Assembly: GCF_964199755.1 (NCBI RefSeq)
Contig: NC_133907.1
Location: 4,469,001 to 4,533,000 of the forward strand
Direction: 5' to 3'
Source: Larus michahellis
Taxonomy: Eukaryota; Chordata; Aves; Charadriiformes; Laridae
Length of the DNA: 64,000 nt
How positions within the stretch are numbered: position 1 is the first letter of the stretch; each line of letters begins with the position of its first letter. Positions 5,501-47,103 of the stretch are shown here, in pieces. The translations under genes and the position numbers were made by a program. A model generated the notes under the pieces. It saw nothing but the letters and a program-made list of their open reading frames with translations. It had not been told where the DNA came from and did not search any database.

Positions 5501-6889
5501 ATGGCCGTGTCACCCTCTACCCGCCGCCTCCTGCCCCTCTTCCTGGGGCTCTTCCAGGGTGCCCTGCTCCTCTTCTTCGCCCTTTTTGTCACCTACGACA
5601 AGCCCTCAGCACAGGCGGAGGATGTCAACTTGGTGGCCAACCAGCTCTACGGCATCTTCCCCCTCTTCCAGGACATCCAGGTGATGCTGGTGGTGGGGCT
5701 GGGGCTCCTGCTGACCTTCCTGCCCCAATACGGGTTCAGCGCCCTCACCCACAACTTCCTCCTGCTCAACTTCTCCACGCAATGGGCGCTGGTGCTGCAG
5801 GGCTTGCTCCATCACTTCCACCACGGCCAGGTCCACCTGGACCTCCACAACCTCCTCACCGCTGAGTTCGCTGCTGTGACGGTGCTCATCTCTGTGGGGG
5901 CCGTCCTGGGAAGGACCAGCCCCTGCCAGCTCCTTGTCATGGCCGCCTGTGAAGTCCCCATCTACCTTGCCAGCGAGTGGGCCATCACCACCCAACTGGG
6001 CGTCCTGGACGTGGGGGGCACCATCACAATCCACGTCTTCTCCTGCTATTTTGGCCTCGGCATGTCCAAGGCTCTGTTTGGGGCAGTGCAGCAGCCACCG
6101 CACCCCAAGGAGACCCCAACACCCCGCTCCGACCTCCTGTCCCTCGTGGGGACGCTCATCCTCTGGGTTTTCTGGCCCAGCTTCGTGGCCGTTCTCTGCC
6201 AACCAGGAGATGCCCAGCATCGTGCCATCCTGAACACCCTCCTGGCCATGAGTGCCAGCGCTGTGACCACCGTGGTGGCCTCCAGCCTGCTGGAGAGTGA
6301 CGGCAAGCTCAGCCCTGGCCACCTGCAGAACGGCAGCCTGGCCGGCGGGGTGGCCATCGGCGCGGTGGCCGACATGGCCGTGCCACCGGTGGCCGCCCTC
6401 GCCCTGGGTAGCCTCTCGGCCGTGGCGTGTGTCCTTGGCTTCAGGTTCCTCACCCCGCTCCTGGCAAGGAAGCTCGCGCTCTGGGACCAGTGTGGCATCC
6501 ACAACCTCCATGGCTTACCCGGCATCCTCGGCGCCGCAGCCAGTGCCGTGGCCATCCTGGTGGCACCCGAGGACACCTCTGGGTCCCACTTCTCCCAGGT
6601 GTCCCCCACCGGGGGCAATGCCAGCGAGGCATTATGGGGAGAGTGGGGGGACCACGGCGCGGGCCGGCAGGCGCTGTGCCAAGCGGCGGGGCTGGCAGTG
6701 GCCATCGGGGCCTCGCTGCTCACCGGGCTACTCACCGGTGCCGCGCTCCGGCTGCCCTGCCTGGCCCGGCCGCCCGAGCGGCTCTGCTTTGATGACTCGC
6801 TGTATTTTAAGATCCAGGATCAGGCTGAGAACTCCAGGACGGGTGACACTGTCGAGGAAGGAGCCCTGGCTCTGAGGGAGCGGGTTTAG
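5501..6889 (+). CDS. Rh-family ammonia channel, Rhp2-like, single coding exon
   Basis: A membrane NH3/NH4+ channel of the Rh glycoprotein (Amt/Rh/Mep) family, 462 codons in one uninterrupted exon. The start has Rh-like N-terminal sequence and a G at +4. About twelve hydrophobic segments are visible, the first near residues 12-31 and the last near 393-418. Family pore residues are present: Asp170 and His178 in DVGGTITIHVF, the second pore His337 in GIHNLHGLPG, and the phenylalanine gate as Phe123 (AEF) and Phe228 (WPSF). QNGSLAGG (from 276) and the tail LCFDDSLYF match the family. The extracellular loop after helix 1 (about 32-57) has no N-X-S/T sequon, unlike most Rh glycoproteins. RHAG, RHBG and RHCG have about ten exons, whereas shark Rhp2 was reported with one coding exon, so Rhp2 is the best assignment. 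An expressed RHCG-type retrocopy is the alternative. No break is visible. Confidence 0.9.
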   Translation: MAVSPSTRRLLPLFLGLFQGALLLFFALFVTYDKPSAQAEDVNLVANQLYGIFPLFQDIQVMLVVGLGLLLTFLPQYGFSALTHNFLLLNFSTQWALVLQGLLHHFHHGQVHLDLHNLLTAEFAAVTVLISVGAVLGRTSPCQLLVMAACEVPIYLASEWAITTQLGVLDVGGTITIHVFSCYFGLGMSKALFGAVQQPPHPKETPTPRSDLLSLVGTLILWVFWPSFVAVLCQPGDAQHRAILNTLLAMSASAVTTVVASSLLESDGKLSPGHLQNGSLAGGVAIGAVADMAVPPVAALALGSLSAVACVLGFRFLTPLLARKLALWDQCGIHNLHGLPGILGAAASAVAILVAPEDTSGSHFSQVSPTGGNASEALWGEWGDHGAGRQALCQAAGLAVAIGASLLTGLLTGAALRLPCLARPPERLCFDDSLYFKIQDQAENSRTGDTVEEGALALRERV

Positions 6890-8590
6890 GCAATGGCGTG
6901 TGTGCAGACGTGGCGAGGGATGGGGGACCAGCTCGGGGGTTGGCCCTTTCTGCCCCCGTCACCTGGCAGGAGACCTGCCCCGTGTCTGGCTCCAGCCGCC
7001 GAGGATGCTGGCAGGGCCAGGGCAGCTCCCTGGCGTGGGTCCTTCCTCCATCCTCCCACCCCGATGCTGCAGACCCCCTCCTCTGCCCTGGCTGCTCCCA
7101 GGATCCTCCAACCCTGGCAGTGATGAGAAACAACCTGAGGGTGTCTCCCCCGGGATGGCTAATAACCCCCGGCTAACCCGAATGTCCCCATCACGGGGCT
7201 CCAGCACCAGCTGCAGTTGGCATCACCCTGACCCTCGGCTCCGGCTCCCGCTCGGAGCTCCCCTGCCCGGAACAGGCAGCACCCTGTGGGGGTTGCGGCT
7301 CCAGCCACAGCTCGGGACTCGGCATCCCCTGCCCGGAGGATGGAAACGCAGCGGTGGGGTGAGGTGAGATGAGCTGAGCTGGCTCCGAGCAAGGGATTTT
7401 AGAGGGATTTGATAACCTGCACTGGGCAAGCCGCTCTCCGGGACACATTGCAAAGGGAGGTGCCAGCTTTTTTTACCATGCAAGTGGCGACGAGGACGCA
7501 GCCCGAGCATGGAGAGGACCCTTGGAGAGAGCTGGGATGCAGGAAGGACCTCCACCCCGCAACACCCTCATCCCACCCTGAAGCTGGGGCTGGGAAAGCT
7601 GTTGCCAGCATCCCAGGGTGCTGGGGGGCCCCGAGGAAGAGCAGCGGCCCCAGTTCCATCCCGCCCTGGGCAGCGAGCCGCTTCCACCCCGCGGAGGACA
7701 AAGCCTGCGGTCCATCGCTGGCATGTGGCAAGCTGCGAGCGCGGGGCCGCATCCTGCCCGGGGAGCGAGGGCTGTGATTCACATCCCACCACCACCCCCC
7801 CTCCATGAGTCACCGCTGCCCCTGCACCGCCACGGATCCCGCTGCTGCGGAGACAATGTCGACGATGCTCGATGCTCGTGGGCTCCCGAGGGGGTGGAGG
7901 CAACCAAACCTCCCCCCCAGCACCAGCCGCAGGAGCTGGGGGCTCTCAGCGCGGTTTGGGGTCCCCAACCCCACGCTGGATCCCTAACCGCCCGGCATGG
8001 CCCCAGGCAGAGCCGGCACCAAGAGGGAGCGAAGCTGGGGAATTCGCCCTCCAATAATCACAAACAGGCTCGGGAGCCCGGGCGTGTTTGGTTAATTGTT
8101 AGAATAAAATATTGCCGAGCTCTGACAAAGGAATCCTGCCCCACAGCCCGGCGCGGCCGAACAATGGGCCCCGGCGCAGGATGCCGCAGGCCGAGCAGCG
8201 GGGCCAGGGGCCGCGGTGGCGGGGGGCAGCGCGGTCCCCCTTGCTCCCCAGCCGAGCCCCGGTGGCCCCCCAGCTTCTCGGCATGGCCGTGCCCTTGCTG
8301 GGGTTGGAGCCACGGCGCACCCGCTGCCTGGCTCCCGCTGGGCGTCGAGAGCCGCCGGAGCCTGCGCCCACCCGGGGAGCTGCCATAGCATGGGGGCCGG
8401 CATCGGCAGCATCCAGCCTGCACTCCCGCCGAGCCCGGCATCCCGGTCCCGCCGGCTTCCCCCCATGCAGAGGCCTGCCGGCTCCAACGCCCGGCTCCGG
8501 CTCCAGCTCCGGCGGCGGGGAGGAGGGTGCATGGGGCCAACAGCACCAGCGACTGCAGCCATCCCCACCCCGGGAAGCAGCCGTGGGGAG
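6890..8590. other. Probable 3' flank/UTR of the Rhp2-like gene
   Basis: GC-rich sequence without coding motifs. The first good AATAAA after the stop on this strand is at 8103-8108, so a 3' UTR of about 1.2 kb is possible but unproven. The open frames here are overlapping composition artefacts. Confidence 0.4.
8103..8108 (+). terminator. Candidate polyadenylation signal AATAAA
   Basis: A canonical AATAAA hexamer in a local AT-rich patch about 1.2 kb past the Rhp2-like stop codon. Its use by that gene is inferred from position only. Confidence 0.4.
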
Positions 8591-8595
8591 GAATC

Positions 8596-8925
8596 ACATG
8601 CACACACGCATGCAGACGCATGGACATGCGTGCACACACCCATAGTCACATGCACACACCCCTGCACGCACACAAAACGGTGTGCACGCATCCATGCGCA
8701 CACCCGCACATGCACGCACACACATATATCCTCATGCACACACACGTATGCACGTGCGCACACGCAAAACAGCGTGCACGCATCCACGCACCCCCCAACA
8801 CACACGCGGATGCACACACACACACAACCACACACCCGCCCCATACACACACACCCACACACGTACATGCACGCACGGACATATACATGCCTTCACACGC
8901 ATGCACGCGCACATAACACGCGCAG
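8596..8925. repeat. CA/CG-rich degenerate simple repeat
   Basis: About 330 bp of alternating purine-pyrimidine sequence built from CACACA, GCACGCA and GCATGCA words. A longer internal motif around GTGCACGCATCCA occurs twice, near 8690 and 8775. Such sequence can adopt Z-DNA. The Cys/Val- and His/Thr-rich open frames through it come from the repeat. Confidence 0.85.
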
Positions 8926-11140
8926 CCCCGAGGCTGCACGCCTTTTGCCGGCGGAGGCGGCAGTGGAGTGGGGCAGAGCGCCTTTCCAGCATCTCCCAGC
9001 CCTTCCCGGCGAGGACAAGGATACGGCCCCTCCCTGAGCCGCCTGCGGCACCCGGCGGGGGAGCGGGCAACAGGGACGCGGGGAGGGAGAGCCCCCAGAG
9101 CTGGGCCTGGGCGCACCCCGCCTCTCGGCTGGCATGTCCTGGCACGGGCACCCCAGCACGCCATGGCACAATCTGGTCTGCAGATGCTTCCAAAACCAGC
9201 AACGGGCCCAGGAAACGGGGGAGTTAAGAGGGGGGGAGTCAGCACTTTCCCGCTGCCCGGAGGGGCTCAGACACCCAGCATCCCATGGCCGGGGGGGTGC
9301 CAGGACCCACCTGGGCCGCGGCACAGCTCCGTGCAGCCCCGTTCCCGGCCGTCCCCATCCCCCGGGACCCGCCGTCCTCCAGCTGGAGCCGGGCAGCGAT
9401 GCCGCTGGGTGTGCCGCCCCGCGCCCGGCTCTCCCCGCTCCTCCAAACCAGCCGCTCTCTCCAAAGGATGGAGCAGTAAAATATTCAGCAGAGCCCCTAG
9501 CGTTTATCACACCGTAAATCTGGGCTTTCAACAGCTTTACGATGCTGCAGGGAGATGGGAGAGAACAAAAACGCTGCTCTGCTTCGTCAGACACAGCCTG
9601 CGTGTGCCAGTGCCCCCAGCACTGGGGCTGGAGGGGACGGGCCCCCAGCCCGGCTTGTGAGGGGGATGAGGACCAAAGCAGGGGGCTCGTGTGGGTGAGA
9701 GCCCCCCCCAGACACCAGCCGGGGGGGGCTGCTGGCACCCCAGGACGGTGGCAGCTCTGCTCCAGTCAAGGGGCTGCGTTTCAGTGGGATAGTGATGGTG
9801 GAAAGGGGTGAAACGTGCCTCCGGCATCGGCTCTGGGGAAATGCAGCAGCCACCAGCCCCTGGCACAGTCTCTGGGCTTGGCACCTTGGCACAGTCCCCC
9901 AGCGCGGTCCCCGGGCACGGTCCCCAGTCACTCTGGGGTCTGCCGCTGCCTCTGAGTCCCTCCAGCTGGGTTGGGATGCAGGACGCTGGCCCTGGTAAGG
10001 ACCACCAATCCCCATCCCCGTCCCCATCCTTGTCCCCATTTCCATCCCTGCAGCCCCAGCAGCGCTCGCCACCGACCCCCCCCCCCGGCCCCGGCTCCCG
10101 GCGGGTCCCTGCCGTGATTGCAAAACAAGCGGCGAGGGGAGGAAGCCGTGATTGCGCTGTTTGCACGGCGCTCGGATGCATCTGGCGAGGCCATCAGCCG
10201 GCAGCAGATGGCACGGTGCGGGAGGGCACGGCGAGCGAGTCCCCCCCCCCCACCTCACGCATCCCCTCGTGCACTAACACACGCGTGTGCAGCCTTTACA
10301 CGCATGACACGTCCTGCCCCGTAGCGTGCCCAAGCGCACACATGGCATCCCCGCATCCACCTCGCCCGTGGGCTTGCACAAGCCCACCCGGGCCACGGGT
10401 GAGGTGGGTGCTGGCCGGGCACCGAACGGTTGCCAAGCGGCTGGCATGGCACGGGGAGGGGGTCACAGCGGCAGAGGCTGCTGGAACCACATCAGAGCAG
10501 CCCCCCCAGAGCAGCCGGGAGCGTGCAGTGCTGCCCTCGAAGGAAATGCGCTCACTCCCATGTGCTGCACACTTGGGTTCGCCTCGCTGCTATTTTTATT
10601 TGACTTTTCAGGGCCTGTTTCCTTTTTCCGGCTGTTTTTGCCGTGATTCCACCGTCGCTTCGACCTCGCTTTTCCCCTCCCTCCCTTTTGCCTCTTCCTT
10701 CACTCTTTCCTTCCTTTCCATGCACTCATTCTTGCCGTCGCACCGGGCTCCCTCTCCCCCCTCCCCGCAGCCGGTGCTCGCGGTGAGCTTGCGGCGAGCT
10801 CGCGGCAAGCGTGCCGATGCCCGTAAACCCCCCCAAACACCAGTACACACCTCCCACCACCGCTCAAATGCCGAATGGGCAGCACTGGGCCCAACATCCC
10901 TATTCCCTGCCGGTGATTTCCCGGCTCGGCTGCCTTCCCCTGTTGCTGCCAGCACGGGAAGGGTAATGAACGGGGTCGGTTATTGCTCTGTTTTTATCTG
11001 GGAAGGTGCTGACGGGTCGGTGGAGAAGCTGGGTGGGGGGGATGGGACTTTGCTCCAGCCTTGATGCAGAAAAAGACAATGAGTCACCCCGTCCCAAGCC
11101 ACCGTCCCGCTCTTGTCGGTGCACAAGCCACCGGGTCCCA

Positions 11141-13113: not shown

Positions 13114-13269
13114 CTACGAGTCCCGGGGGACACGGCGAGGTGAGTGCAGGGCGTAGAGCTTCTCCCAGCAGGTCGCCAGCCTCTCCGCCTTCCTCCCGAT
13201 CTCCCGCAGCAGCTTCCTCCTGCGGCCGGGTCCCCCTCGCCGGGGCTGCGCCGGGATGTGCGGCGGGCT
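13114..13269 (-). CDS. C20orf204: C20orf204 coding exon 5 (last)
   Basis: Codons 119-169 and stop. The acceptor is an AG after a moderate pyrimidine tract. It encodes an Arg/Gly-rich linker, then the last amphipathic helix with ATCWEKLYALHS, ending RDS-stop as in the human protein. Confidence 0.85.
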   Translation of the reverse strand, partial: SPPHIPAQPRRGGPGRRRKLLREIGRKAERLATCWEKLYALHSPRRVPRDS

Positions 13270-16200
13270 CTGCGGTCAGCGTGCCGAGGGAGCAGAAACA
13301 CCCCCCCAACACCACGCAGGCGTTAGTCTGGGGAAAAAAAGCCACCACCCCAGCACCGAGGACGCGCCTGGCACATCACACCCCACGCACCTGGGGTTTG
13401 CGTGGGCAAAGCTGCAGGATGGAGTGGCCAAACCGCTGGTGGCCACAGCAAGGACGTGCTCACAAGTCCCCAGAGCTGGCCGTCCCCCCCATAAGCTGGT
13501 AGCACGCACCCCACAGCGCCCCCATGGCCAGGGCAGAGGGCCAGGTTGGGTCTGCAGGCATTTTTCCAGAGGAGAGGCACCTCCGCCCCACACCAGCAAA
13601 CCCCAGACAGGGTTAGTCCCCGCTGATCTCCCCGGCGATGGCGGGGAGGACGACAGCACCGAGCCACAGCTGTCACTTTGCTGCCCTGGGGTTTCCCCGC
13701 TGTTTAGTGAGTTGCTGGTGGCTGCCATAGGGAAACCTCCCGGGAATCCCCAGCAGAGCCCCAGGGATGTCCAGGGAGCCCAGACCAGCCCTTTGGGGAG
13801 AAATCCCAGTTCCTGTCTACAAGCACCCAGGCGCAAGAGCAGGACTGGGTGCGCCCACCCACCGGGCGAGCATCCCACTGGGATGAGGCTGTTCCCATCA
13901 GCCATGGCATCGTAGTATGGGCAGAGAAACACGCTTGGGAGCTGTTGGGAAAAACCCAGCAGCTTGTCCCACGCTGCCACAGACAGACTTCCCTCCCCAA
14001 GCAGTTTAAAGCTCACAGGGACGCGCTGTCAGCATCCCCCAGCCACAAACCCAGCACAGACCTTCACCCCCGCCCCAGGATGCTGCAGGCAGAGCCTGGA
14101 GACTCCTCATGGGCAGCCAGGAGAGCGCACAACAGGGCAGGATGGGGAACTGGGAGTCACTGGGGTGACTGGGAAGGGGCAGGGCTCCCACCTTGCTGAT
14201 TTTCCTGCAGTTCTCCCTGAGCACGAAGTCGGTGTTCCTGGCCACCTTCCAGACCGCCAGCTCCTCGGGGCCGCGCAGGGTGCTGGCCGCCACCTCCCGC
14301 AGGGACATGCTGATGTTGTAGATGGAGAGCAGGATCTTCTGGTCCTGGGGGAGGAGAGAAGCGCGTCCCAGGTGGGGAGGGGGCTCGGCGGCTCTGCCAG
14401 GGGCTCAGCCCGCATGATGCCCCAGCCCCAGGTCCCTTGTGCTCACCTTGTCCGAGCGACAAGCCGTCCCGACCCTTCCACTCCTGTCCTCCGACCCAGT
14501 CAGGTTTTTCTGGAGAAACAAAGCATTTATTTCAGGCATCCCAAAGCATCAGTGTCTACCACACGGGGCAGGAATCCCCCGTTTCAACACAGCGCTCTCT
14601 CCAGTAATGCCAGCAAAGCGGCCAGCCCCATGTTAAGCTTCCAAGCTCATCCCTCCCTGCCCACATCCTGCAGCGGGGCCGCATCCAGCTCAGCAGCATC
14701 CCCCGGAGCAGGGAGCCAGGCCCCCGGGCAGACACCCCCACCTTGGCTCACCAGGTTCTGGATCTCATGGAAGATGACGGCGCGGTACTGCCGGAGGATT
14801 TTGGCGATGCTGCACCTCTTGCCTCTGCTCAGTGCGGCGACGAGCAGGAGGAGCAGAACAGCGCAAGAGAGCGCCCGGGGGAGAATCTGCACGGGGAAAC
14901 GCTCGTGTCAGCGGCGGGGGAAGGCAGGGATGAAGGGATGCTCCGGGCTCTGCCCCCAGCCCCTCACCATGAAACCCCATCAGACCTGTCCCTGAAGATG
15001 CAGCGTGTGCAGGAGGGGGTCAACTGTGTCCTCTTCCAGAGGACGTCCTCCCAGCCGGGCCACCTCCTCTTGGAGCAGAACCTTTGAGAAACTGCTCCAG
15101 CTTCAACCCAGTCCAGGCAGCGCTGCCCGTGGCACCCACTGAGCTCTCTCCAGTGCCAGCAGCCACGTGCCAGGGACCTTTGCGGGTCTACAGGGTCTGT
15201 CCCCAAGCTCTGCCCCAACAGAGTCCCCAGTAGCTCCCCAGCTTGTGGCATTTCAAGGCCAGACCTCAACTACCAAAAATCAAGGGGAGCAGAAAGGGAC
15301 ATGCCCTGCTCTTTGGAGAGGAGCTGGAGGCAGGGAGCTGCCTGGTTCACCACCAGCAAATCCCCACGCCATGACACAAACGGCTTCGGGCACCCTCGGA
15401 AGGATGCTCTCCGCACTGCCGCAGACCCTGCGGCACAGACACGGCATTTTTTGCAGCTCCCACGCAGCCCCTGCTTGTCGCCGGGTTGGATGCCCTCACC
15501 CAAGAGCCAGATAAGAAGCAGCACAAGCGCCCGCTCTCGCCAGCGTGTCCCGGCTGCCTCCGAGCTTCCCTCCTGGCTCCAAGCCTTCCCGGCAGCCCCG
15601 AGCTGGCCCCAGCAGAGCGGGGAAACCCAAGTGCTGACATCCGAGCTGGCAGGGAGCACGGGGAGGGGGCGGCCGGACCCTCCGAGGGATGAGTTCCGGG
15701 GCTTTGATGAAAAGCCAGCGCAACCTCAGGTGACCGGGAGCGGGGATATTTGAGCAGTCCCACAGCAGCGGGGCGAGGATGGGAAGCCCGATAACACGCA
15801 CAGCATCTGCCAGGAAAGGAGCCCGACAGATCTCCACGTCTCCGCGTGGCTGAGAGATGGCACAGTGCTGCAGCCCCATCCTGGCATCGGGGCATTTCTG
15901 TCATCTCCCATTTGCAGGAAAAACCCCCCAAAAATCCCCCCCCCCCCCATCATCTCTCCCTCTCCAGGTGTCAGGTCTGGGCAGGCAGAAAGCAGCTCAG
16001 CTCCTTCCAAATATGCAACCCCTGTGCTGTGGCCAAAGCCTGCAAGGAGGAAGGGGCAGGCAGCTCTGCCGGCATCCGCCTGCCCCTAGCCCCAGCTCGC
16101 ATCTCGGCAGGTTCACTGCCGTCCCAGCCGCGTCTGCCTCTCGGGCTTGGCTTTCTGCTCAGAGAAGCCAGAAGGAAGAAGTTTCCTTGCTGAAGTCCAA

Positions 16201-18099
16201 GCCCAGGCAGGCACCATCCATCCTGCCCTTCGGTGGGAACCCAGAGGGTTTGGTTGTAAAACTGGCATCTGCTCTGTGGTTCCTCACTGGTCCTGGCTCC
16301 CAAAGGGCAAGGAAACCTTTCCCACCCTCCTGCTCCCGCAGCTCAGCAGGAGCAATGGGGGCTTAACACAAGGCAAGACCCAACACGCCGCAGCTCTGGG
16401 AACCCACGGACACAGGCATCACCTTGGAGCAGAAGCATGAGCGAGGAGATGAGCAAATCCACGTGCAACCAGTACAAATCCCACTGGACCCTTCAGCTTC
16501 CTTAATCGCAGCATGCCTTCCAGTAGAGATGTGCTGGGCCCCATCCAGGGGACGGGAAGGGCAGGGAAAAGCCTCCCCAGGCTGCTGGCTTTGCTCTCTG
16601 CAAACCCACAGAGATCTCACCCCGGGGGGATTCAGCAGAGCACCGAGGGTATAACGCTCAGGGACACCAAAGGAGAGCGCTGCTTCCATGAGGACACCCT
16701 GTCCAAAGTCTAAGGGTTGCTCTCAGGAAGCCTCCGCCGCCAGGAAGACAAGGCCATGAGATTTAGATTTTACCATTAAGCTGGGAATGACTTCCCTGAA
16801 GTGGCTTATTAAACAACTGGGACCAAATTCCAGGAGAAAGCACACCATTTACAGCATTTCCAGGCAGCCGAGCCTGGCACTGGACTCTCAGTCTTTAGCA
16901 TGGGAGGAAACTCAGCCTGCAATTAAAAAAGCTCATCAAGCAGCCGGGAGAGGAGCTCGGAGGGTGCAGTAGGTGCTTCCCACCACCCCCACAGAGAGCA
17001 GGGAAGCGGCGGTGGCAAGAGAGGGATGTGGGGGAGAGATGAAGCCGGCAAACCCCAGTCCTCGCCATTGCTTCCCACCCTTCAGGACGAAGATGAGCTC
17101 TGCAGCTGATTTGGGGTTATTCCTTCTCCCCTTGCCCCCATTCCCGCAGCAGCAGGCTGCAGGTAGCCTGGGCAGCTCTGGCATTCGGCACATCCCTTCC
17201 CACGGGAGGGCTGGCAGGGAAGGAGCAGCTCGGGGAGAGCGGGTGCAGGACAGTCACAGCGTGCTCCGCCTGGCAGGGAAAGCTAATCTCTTCCTCAACT
17301 CTAATCCTCCAGCAAATACGAGGAGATAAGGGAAATCACCATTATTGATAGAGCAGCTCCTGGTGGCACTCGTGCTGGCCCCAGCCACCCTGGCAGCAAC
17401 AGGCAATGCCGGCCGCCAGCCCGGGAGCCCCACTGGGGTGCCCAGGTCCTTCCAGCCAGATGGACCCTGTCCCCAAGACCCACGTACCCAAAGGGACCCT
17501 GCCACCACCCAGAGCCCCAGCACCTGCCACAGCCCCGGGCAGGGACAGACCCTCCGTTCTCGCCCTGGGGACCAGCCAGGTCCAAGCCCCATCCCAGCCA
17601 ATTCCAAGTGCAATCCCGGCGACAGCAGTCTGGTCCCTCTGGACCAGCCCTCCCACCGGACCGGAGCCCCTTCCCCACCAGCGTCCAGCTCCATCCCGCC
17701 GCGACCCTCCCCGCCGGATCCAAGCCCCATCCTGACCCTGCCCAGCCCCGTTCCGACTGGTCCAAGGGCTTTCCCGGCCGGATCAGCCCCGTGCTGACCA
17801 GTCCGAGTCCCTTTTCCCGGCTGGACCAGCCCCTTCCCGGCCGGACCGGCCCCTCTCCCGGTCGGTCCAAGCCCCATCCCAGGAGAACCAGCCGCGTCCC
17901 GAGGGGTGTCCCAAGCCGCGTCCCGGCTGCTGCGAGTCCCACCCCGGCGGAACCGACCCCATCCCGGCGGTGCGGGGGGTGGGGGGCTCCGGTCCGGCAC
18001 CCTACCGGGGATGGGGGGAGCGGGCCGCCCCCTCCCGCAGATCCGCACCCCTCGGAGAGGGAAAGGGAAAAGGGGCAGCGGCCCCGGCGCACTCACCAT
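13114..18099 (-). CDS. C20orf204: C20orf204 orthologue: small secreted, helical, cysteine-containing protein
   Basis: Spliced CDS of 169 codons from five exons: 18099-18097, 14886-14752, 14509-14447, 14344-14192, 13269-13114. All four introns are GT-AG and phase 0. Residues 2-22 form a hydrophobic signal peptide. The mature part has about four amphipathic helices: near 27-46, 68-90, 93-115 and 136-160. Cysteines are at 26, 63, 113 and 152. N-glycosylation sequons are NLT at 48 and NIS at 77. It matches remembered human C20orf204 at CS..LRxYRAxIF, KNLT, ILLSI and ATCWEKL and ends in RDS; the human protein has the same four cysteines. Position also fits: downstream of PRPF6 on the same strand. 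Work I recall on human C20orf204 describes an intracellular, nucleolin-binding microprotein, but the features here favour secretion. The receptor and function are unknown. The one-codon first exon is the least certain part. Confidence 0.85.
14192..14344 (-). CDS. C20orf204: C20orf204 coding exon 4
   Basis: 51 codons (68-118), phase 0 at both ends, with an acceptor after a strong CT-rich tract and donor AAG|GTGGGA. It encodes two helices with the ILLSIYNIS and LAVWKVARNTD motifs and Cys113. Confidence 0.9.
14447..14509 (-). CDS. C20orf204: C20orf204 coding exon 3
   Basis: A 21-codon microexon (47-67), phase 0, flanked by a TTTCTCCAG acceptor and GTGAGC donor. It encodes KNLTG, with the N-glycosylation sequon, and Cys63, aligning with the human KNLT segment. 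Confidence 0.9.
14752..14886 (-). CDS. C20orf204: C20orf204 coding exon 2 (signal peptide and first helix)
   Basis: 45 codons (2-46). The exon has no ATG of its own at its 5' end, and the CCCCGTGCAG acceptor directly precedes ATT CTC, so the start codon must come from an upstream exon. It encodes the hydrophobic core of the signal peptide, a likely cleavage region near SRG, Cys26 and LRQYRAVIF. Confidence 0.9.
14887..18096 (-). other. C20orf204: C20orf204 intron 1
   Basis: About 3.2 kb with GC-rich unique sequence, an AT-richer patch near 16.7-16.95 kb and a degenerate minisatellite near its 5' end. No other exon or RNA gene is recognised. Confidence 0.55.
17560..17960. repeat. Degenerate GC-rich minisatellite
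   Basis: Imperfect repeats of roughly 25-30 bp built on GGACCAGCCCC-TTCCCGGCC. They are diverged in length and sequence and lie in C20orf204 intron 1. They create long Gly/Arg/Pro-rich open frames on both strands that should not be taken as genes. Confidence 0.7.

Positions 18100-21618: not shown

Positions 21619-47103
<25,485 letters not shown>

Follow-up and report, generated by a model that had tools for sequence, protein, structure and literature searches.

What kind of protein does C20orf204 encode? The human gene is now filed as a long noncoding RNA or a liver-cancer microprotein, and its published product has been described as nucleolar. We studied the gene in a 64,000-nucleotide stretch of the Larus michahellis genome (contig NC_133907.1, positions 4,469,001 to 4,533,000; hereafter the window), where an earlier note, made from the DNA letters, had read it as a secreted, cytokine-like protein of four helices. 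Our analysis indicates that C20orf204 is probably a short-chain type I cytokine of four helices, secreted with N-glycans and stabilised by disulfides, that stands closest to IL-7 and TSLP; its membership of the IL-7/TSLP group is probable but not proven. IL-7 and TSLP govern lymphocyte survival and allergy, and TSLP is a drug target. If this reading is true, the human genome contains an orphan ligand, and the search for its receptor can begin directly with a few known chains; C20orf204 links by sequence IL-7 and TSLP, two families left unconnected by our profile methods; and the nucleolar interpretation needs a fresh look. A resemblance of human C20orf204 to interleukins and growth hormone is already in print (PMC9992864). 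In the literature searched, outside which lie most subscription papers and bioRxiv as a collection, none of the 27 papers that mention C20orf204 also mentions TSLP or IL-7.

A conserved five-exon gene

C20orf204 occupies positions 18099-13114 of the window on the minus strand, and rebuilding it from the sequence reproduced exactly the five joined coding exons and the 169-residue protein of the earlier note, with GT-AG introns that are all phase 0. The cysteines at 26, 63, 113 and 152 and the sequons NLT48 and NIS77 are also where the note had placed them, and a further cysteine, C9, lies within the signal peptide. When the gene model is set against the predicted helices, one exon each appears to encode helix A, the AB loop, helices B and C together, and helix D.

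C20orf204 is not a product of chance: 139 homologues were found at an expectation value (E) of 1e-3 or below among 5.8 billion proteins, and most of the 120 that were listed are annotated 'C20orf204 homolog'. Those listed come from birds, turtles, an alligator and mammals, the closest among them (98%) being from Chroicocephalus ridibundus and Rissa, both gulls. A profile search gave 267 matches at E <= 10; among the 120 of these that were listed, no relative from fish, amphibians or lizards appeared, which does not exclude their presence. In total 147 homologues were listed, primates other than human included, and from them we chose 76 (35 mammals, 5 turtles and 36 birds), leaving out fragments, isoforms and some long predicted N-termini.

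All four cysteines are kept across birds, turtles and mammals. Over the 147 listed homologues, counted where each position is covered, C26 is present in 139/139, C63 in 134/135, C113 in 144/144 and C152 in 123/123; W153 (123/123), Y35 (139/139) and T105 (143/144) are conserved to a similar degree. In a 32-row alignment, an alligator prediction (P0090) lacks the last cysteine and has a C-terminus unlike that of the other rows. The exon that carries the signal peptide is retained as well: its start was recognised in 115 of the 147 homologues, preceded by a bare methionine in 49 of them, in birds, turtles and mammals alike, by longer predicted N-termini in 64, and by MR and ME in one each. The other 32, in which the exon-2 pattern was unmatched, are fragments, other models (some starting inside or after exon 2) and pattern misses.

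In two contigs of 1,005 and 1,021 bases (P0081 and P0098) the exons are already joined and encode the entire chain together with the signal peptide, and a third of 1,029 bases (P0145) encodes the joined chain, signal peptide included, behind a different and longer N-terminus. With joined chains on contigs of about 1 kb, these are presumably transcripts after splicing; copies without introns are less likely. Conservation of the protein in birds, turtles and mammals rules out a gene-prediction artefact and a purely noncoding RNA. In two predicted bird isoforms (P0073 and P0089) exon 2 is joined directly to exon 4 in frame, so that C63 would be lost; because all introns are phase 0, such in-frame skipping of exon 3 is possible.

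Secretory features and the published human product

The signal peptide proposed in the earlier note is supported by hydropathy: a hydrophobic core precedes the first conserved cysteine in 76/76 chosen homologues, and the mature chain, of 146 residues with a net charge of +19, contains no second membrane-like stretch. NLT48 is retained by 64 of the 76 (31/35 mammals, 5/5 turtles, 28/36 birds), and NIS77 is found in 35/36 birds and in 0/40 of the other chosen homologues. We infer from these features that C20orf204 is secreted.

N-glycans that are sensitive to EndoH are attached in the endoplasmic reticulum (ER). The human 189-residue product of the same gene (C20orf204-189AA, from LINC00176), which has a sequon at 72-74, gave EndoH-sensitive bands and was located partly in the ER and also in nucleoli (PMC7969625). 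Part of that chain therefore entered the secretory path, given where such glycans arise. The terms 'signal peptide', 'secret-' and 'cytokine' are absent from the main text of that report. Cattle C20orf204 is listed as raised in gamma-delta T cells with a log2 fold change of 22.61 (PMC10628470), a value that resembles an all-or-none count effect and to which we give no weight.

A predicted helical-cytokine fold

Structure prediction for the bird protein, with two of five models confident, gave an up-up-down-down bundle of four long helices, in line with the roughly four helices expected from the earlier note. Residues 25-161 of the predicted model align with helical cytokines in both Foldseek and VIA. 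For this model, helical cytokines take Foldseek ranks 1-12, with the growth hormone/prolactin group appearing at rank 50, and in VIA they fill all 50 rows listed for the bird model and all 50 for the mammal model, the rows of the different groups overlapping. Identity in the VIA rows listed for the bird model was 14-19% for TSLP and IL-7 versus 6-14% elsewhere. The suggested resemblance to short-chain helical cytokines is upheld and can be narrowed to the IL-7/TSLP group, the narrower assignment being less confident than the fold. A phase-0 intron plan is a general feature of short-chain cytokines, so the plan seen here supports the cytokine class more than the IL-7/TSLP subgroup.

Sequence profiles weakly link C20orf204 to both IL-7 and TSLP

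Searched against 177,635 PDB sequences, the C20orf204 profile had IL-7 as its sole match at E <= 10, with E 0.10 when built from 23 rows and 0.035 from 76. On 21 mammalian IL-7 chains (P0152 and P0195, which lack the first cysteine, having been dropped) it scored a median of 12.0 bits, a value that 0/2,982 residue shuffles equalled or exceeded, and on seven TSLP chains a median of 8.3 bits, reached by 1/2,996 shuffles. In the reverse direction, the TSLP profile gave a median of 7.7 bits on C20orf204 (reached by 0/2,964 shuffles) and the IL-7 profile 4.7 bits (6/2,964). Fourteen other human cytokines, their sequences entered by hand, scored at most 2.6 bits with the C20orf204 profile, IL-2 and G-CSF yielding no score. 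Under a harsher control that keeps seven-residue blocks, the medians were reached in 17/2,982 (IL-7) and 15/2,996 (TSLP) shuffles and the maxima never. Profiles built from single groups also scored on IL-7, with medians of 7.4 bits for birds, 4.4 for turtles and 8.4 for mammals.

Comparison of profile with profile by hhalign gave 30.7 for C20orf204 against IL-7 and 24.7 against TSLP, versus permuted maxima of 19.0 and 19.2 (100 trials each); IL-7 against TSLP scored 11.2, which 56/100 permutations reached. Nor did the IL-7 profile and TSLP, or the reverse, find each other, their scores not rising above shuffles. On these profile and hhalign tests, C20orf204 is closer to IL-7 and to TSLP than those two are to each other. 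Pfam searches with 23 members matched TSLP at 0.073 and IL7 at 0.17, each with one member of the 23. With the single window protein, Pfam matched no cytokine model and gave GATase_6 at 0.049, far under the cut-off, and a single-chain phmmer search of PDB gave a colicin as its sole match at E of about 1; we regard both as noise. The IL7 family had 0 matches in the bird's own genome and likewise 0 in 14 control genomes, so this result is uninformative.

Cysteines, core residues and exon boundaries

Three MAFFT strategies, in a program that is not blind to cysteines, placed C26, C63 and C113 on C2, C47 and C92 of IL-7 and on C34, C69 and C110 of TSLP, C152 on C141 of IL-7, and W153 on the helix-D tryptophan of both. 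IL-7 (PF01415; PDB 3DI2, 3DI3) further shares the helix-D motif TCW[EN]K[LI], and its first coding exon is likewise very short. It differs in having C34 and C129, which form a pair and have no counterparts in C20orf204, and identity in structural alignments is 17-19%; the CD loop of C20orf204 is also very basic. TSLP (PF15216; PDB 5J11, 4NN5) has such a basic CD loop, together with C-x8-Y in helix A, T-x7-C in helix C and the tryptophan of helix D. C20orf204 lacks TSLP C75, C90 and C137 and has a cysteine before the helix-D tryptophan that TSLP lacks. It is not a TSLP orthologue under another name, because mammals carry both genes.

The bridges of TSLP are C34-C110, C69-C75 and C90-C137 (PMC5382266), and by alignment the first and helix-C cysteines of C20orf204 would sit at the places of C34-C110. 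The helix-1 kink that IL-7 needs for IL-7R-alpha is steadied by a bridge between the N-terminus and loop 3 (PMC12810954), and a C26-C113 bridge would correspond to that one. A buried water in TSLP is held by Trp148, Thr102 and Thr83, and the sole tryptophan of IL-7 is buried (PMC7396566); W153 and T105 fall at the corresponding aligned positions. A37 (76/76 chosen homologues) and V38 (71/76) occupy, counting from the shared cysteine, the place of TSLP Ser45 and Thr46, which contact IL-7R-alpha (PMC5382266).

Exon ends point the same way by their positions. IL-7 exon ends, taken from exon-skipped isoforms (P0170, P0176, P0218 and P0159), share alignment columns with those of C20orf204 at two places, following helix A and following C-x3-K; the third introns, at the end of helix C, lie 2 residues apart. 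The TSLP boundary after the AB-loop cysteine, known from a single predicted isoform (P0264), is at most one column from that of C20orf204.

Proposed mode of action and alternative explanations

The predicted fold, the conserved cysteines and the retained exon-2 start support the possible secreted ligand of the earlier note. In such a ligand the signal peptide would direct the chain into the ER, C26-C113 would fasten helix A at its start to helix C at its end, the role that C34-C110 has in TSLP, and the AB loop would be tied to helix D by C63-C152. Once released, the folded protein could bridge two class I receptor chains and so evoke JAK/STAT signalling. If the kinship with IL-7 and TSLP is right, IL-7R-alpha may by analogy be contacted by the helix A/C face and a second chain, perhaps CRLF2 or the common gamma chain, by the side of helix D. 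A bolder version, which we hold tentatively and consider possible but doubtful, is that C20orf204, which birds, turtles and crocodilians retain as mammals do, is a third cytokine of the IL-7R-alpha group and combines IL-7 features with those of TSLP. The chicken has an annotated CRLF2 (PMC9823035), and our literature search (titles, abstract openings and passages of PMC6501151) found no report of an avian TSLP; avian C20orf204 could be a CRLF2 ligand.

Several results weigh against kinship with IL-7 and TSLP. No profile match to either reached significance (the Pfam gathering score or E < 0.001), the PDB match standing at E 0.035; three of the seven TSLP chains scored 2.6-3.8 bits, near the background of the 14 other cytokines; and hhalign probabilities were 7-33% (33% and 9% in one comparison). 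The 23-member Pfam searches returned 12 weak families, TSLP and IL7 among them, of which the best, 'Protein M, C-terminal' (0.0033), is unrelated, so that these Pfam matches carry no weight by themselves; against the same PDB set a TSLP profile had annexin matches at E 0.064, and joint profiles of C20orf204 with IL-7 or with TSLP did not reach the third family. For the mammal model, Foldseek ranked prolactin and CNTF first, with the growth hormone/prolactin group at E 0.66, and had neither IL-7 nor TSLP in its top 50; the VIA Z of G-CSF, IL-11 and IL-6 was within about 2 of that of TSLP and IL-7 for both models. Together with the generality of the phase-0 plan and the links to somatotropin and to interleukins that PROST found for human C20orf204 (PMC9992864), these structural rankings speak for a secreted type I helical cytokine of another branch, either long-chain and growth-hormone/prolactin/IL-6-like or an isolated short-chain form, whose likeness to IL-7 and TSLP would be chance on a shared fold. 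We consider this unlikely in view of the sole PDB profile match, the low scores of the other cytokines, the shared cysteine positions and helix-D tryptophan, and the higher VIA identity.

The published interpretation, a mainly intracellular, arginine-rich nucleolar microprotein that stabilises nucleolin and increases the production of rRNA, draws on nuclear staining in 14/20 tumours, a nucleolin pull-down, 28S rRNA binding and faster growth on overexpression (PMC7969625), and the charge of the mature chain would suit it. Against it stand the signal-peptide core in every chosen homologue, the conserved cysteines, the widely kept NLT48 and the EndoH-sensitive, ER-located forms of the same report; overexpressed, strongly basic tagged chains can, moreover, reach nucleoli. 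We judge it improbable, and the nucleolar signal on overexpression may be a by-product of the very basic chain. Secretion features do not prove signalling, and so basic a chain might instead belong to, for instance, a binding protein or an antimicrobial one; with helical cytokines as the leading structure matches and a conserved Trp and Thr at the places of the TSLP core pair, such a non-cytokine role seems highly improbable. A short-chain cytokine close to IL-7 and TSLP remains the reading that we favour.

Gene features and neighbourhood

Table 1. Coding exons of C20orf204 and candidate polyadenylation signal, in window positions
Feature	Positions	Strand	Remarks
Coding exon 1	18097..18099	-	Bare ATG; donor GTGAGT directly after; intron 1 phase 0
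Coding exon 2	14752..14886	-	Signal peptide (hydrophobic core 10-20) and predicted helix A: C26, Y35, A37, I39; phase-0 intron after ...HEIQNL
Coding exon 3	14447..14509	-	Predicted AB loop, NLT48 sequon, C63; phase-0 intron after CRSDK
Coding exon 4	14192..14344	-	Predicted helices B and C, NIS77 sequon, T105, C113; phase-0 intron after ...CRKISK
Coding exon 5	13114..13269	-	Basic CD loop, predicted helix D with TCWEKL motif (C152, W153), stop TAG
Candidate polyadenylation signal AATAAA	12342..12347	-	766 bases beyond stop; weak, consensus match alone

An exon at 32363 on the minus strand presumably belongs to PRPF6, judging by its sequence, and a SOX18-type HMG box exon lies on the plus strand of the same genome, some 17 kb to the left of the window (about 4452230). 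This order agrees with the human one, PRPF6, C20orf204, SOX18. Rfam at gathering scores gave no match within the 64,000 nucleotides. A CA-rich simple repeat at 8570-8930 produces spurious open reading frames, and a tandem repeat at about 46.2-47.1 kb, with long open frames on both strands and a recurring protein unit, is probably a minisatellite and not a gene. Between SOX18 and C20orf204, at 5501-6889 on the plus strand, is an uninterrupted single-exon gene of 462 amino acids of the ammonium transporter/Rh type (PF00909, E 1e-55), which may be a retrocopy.
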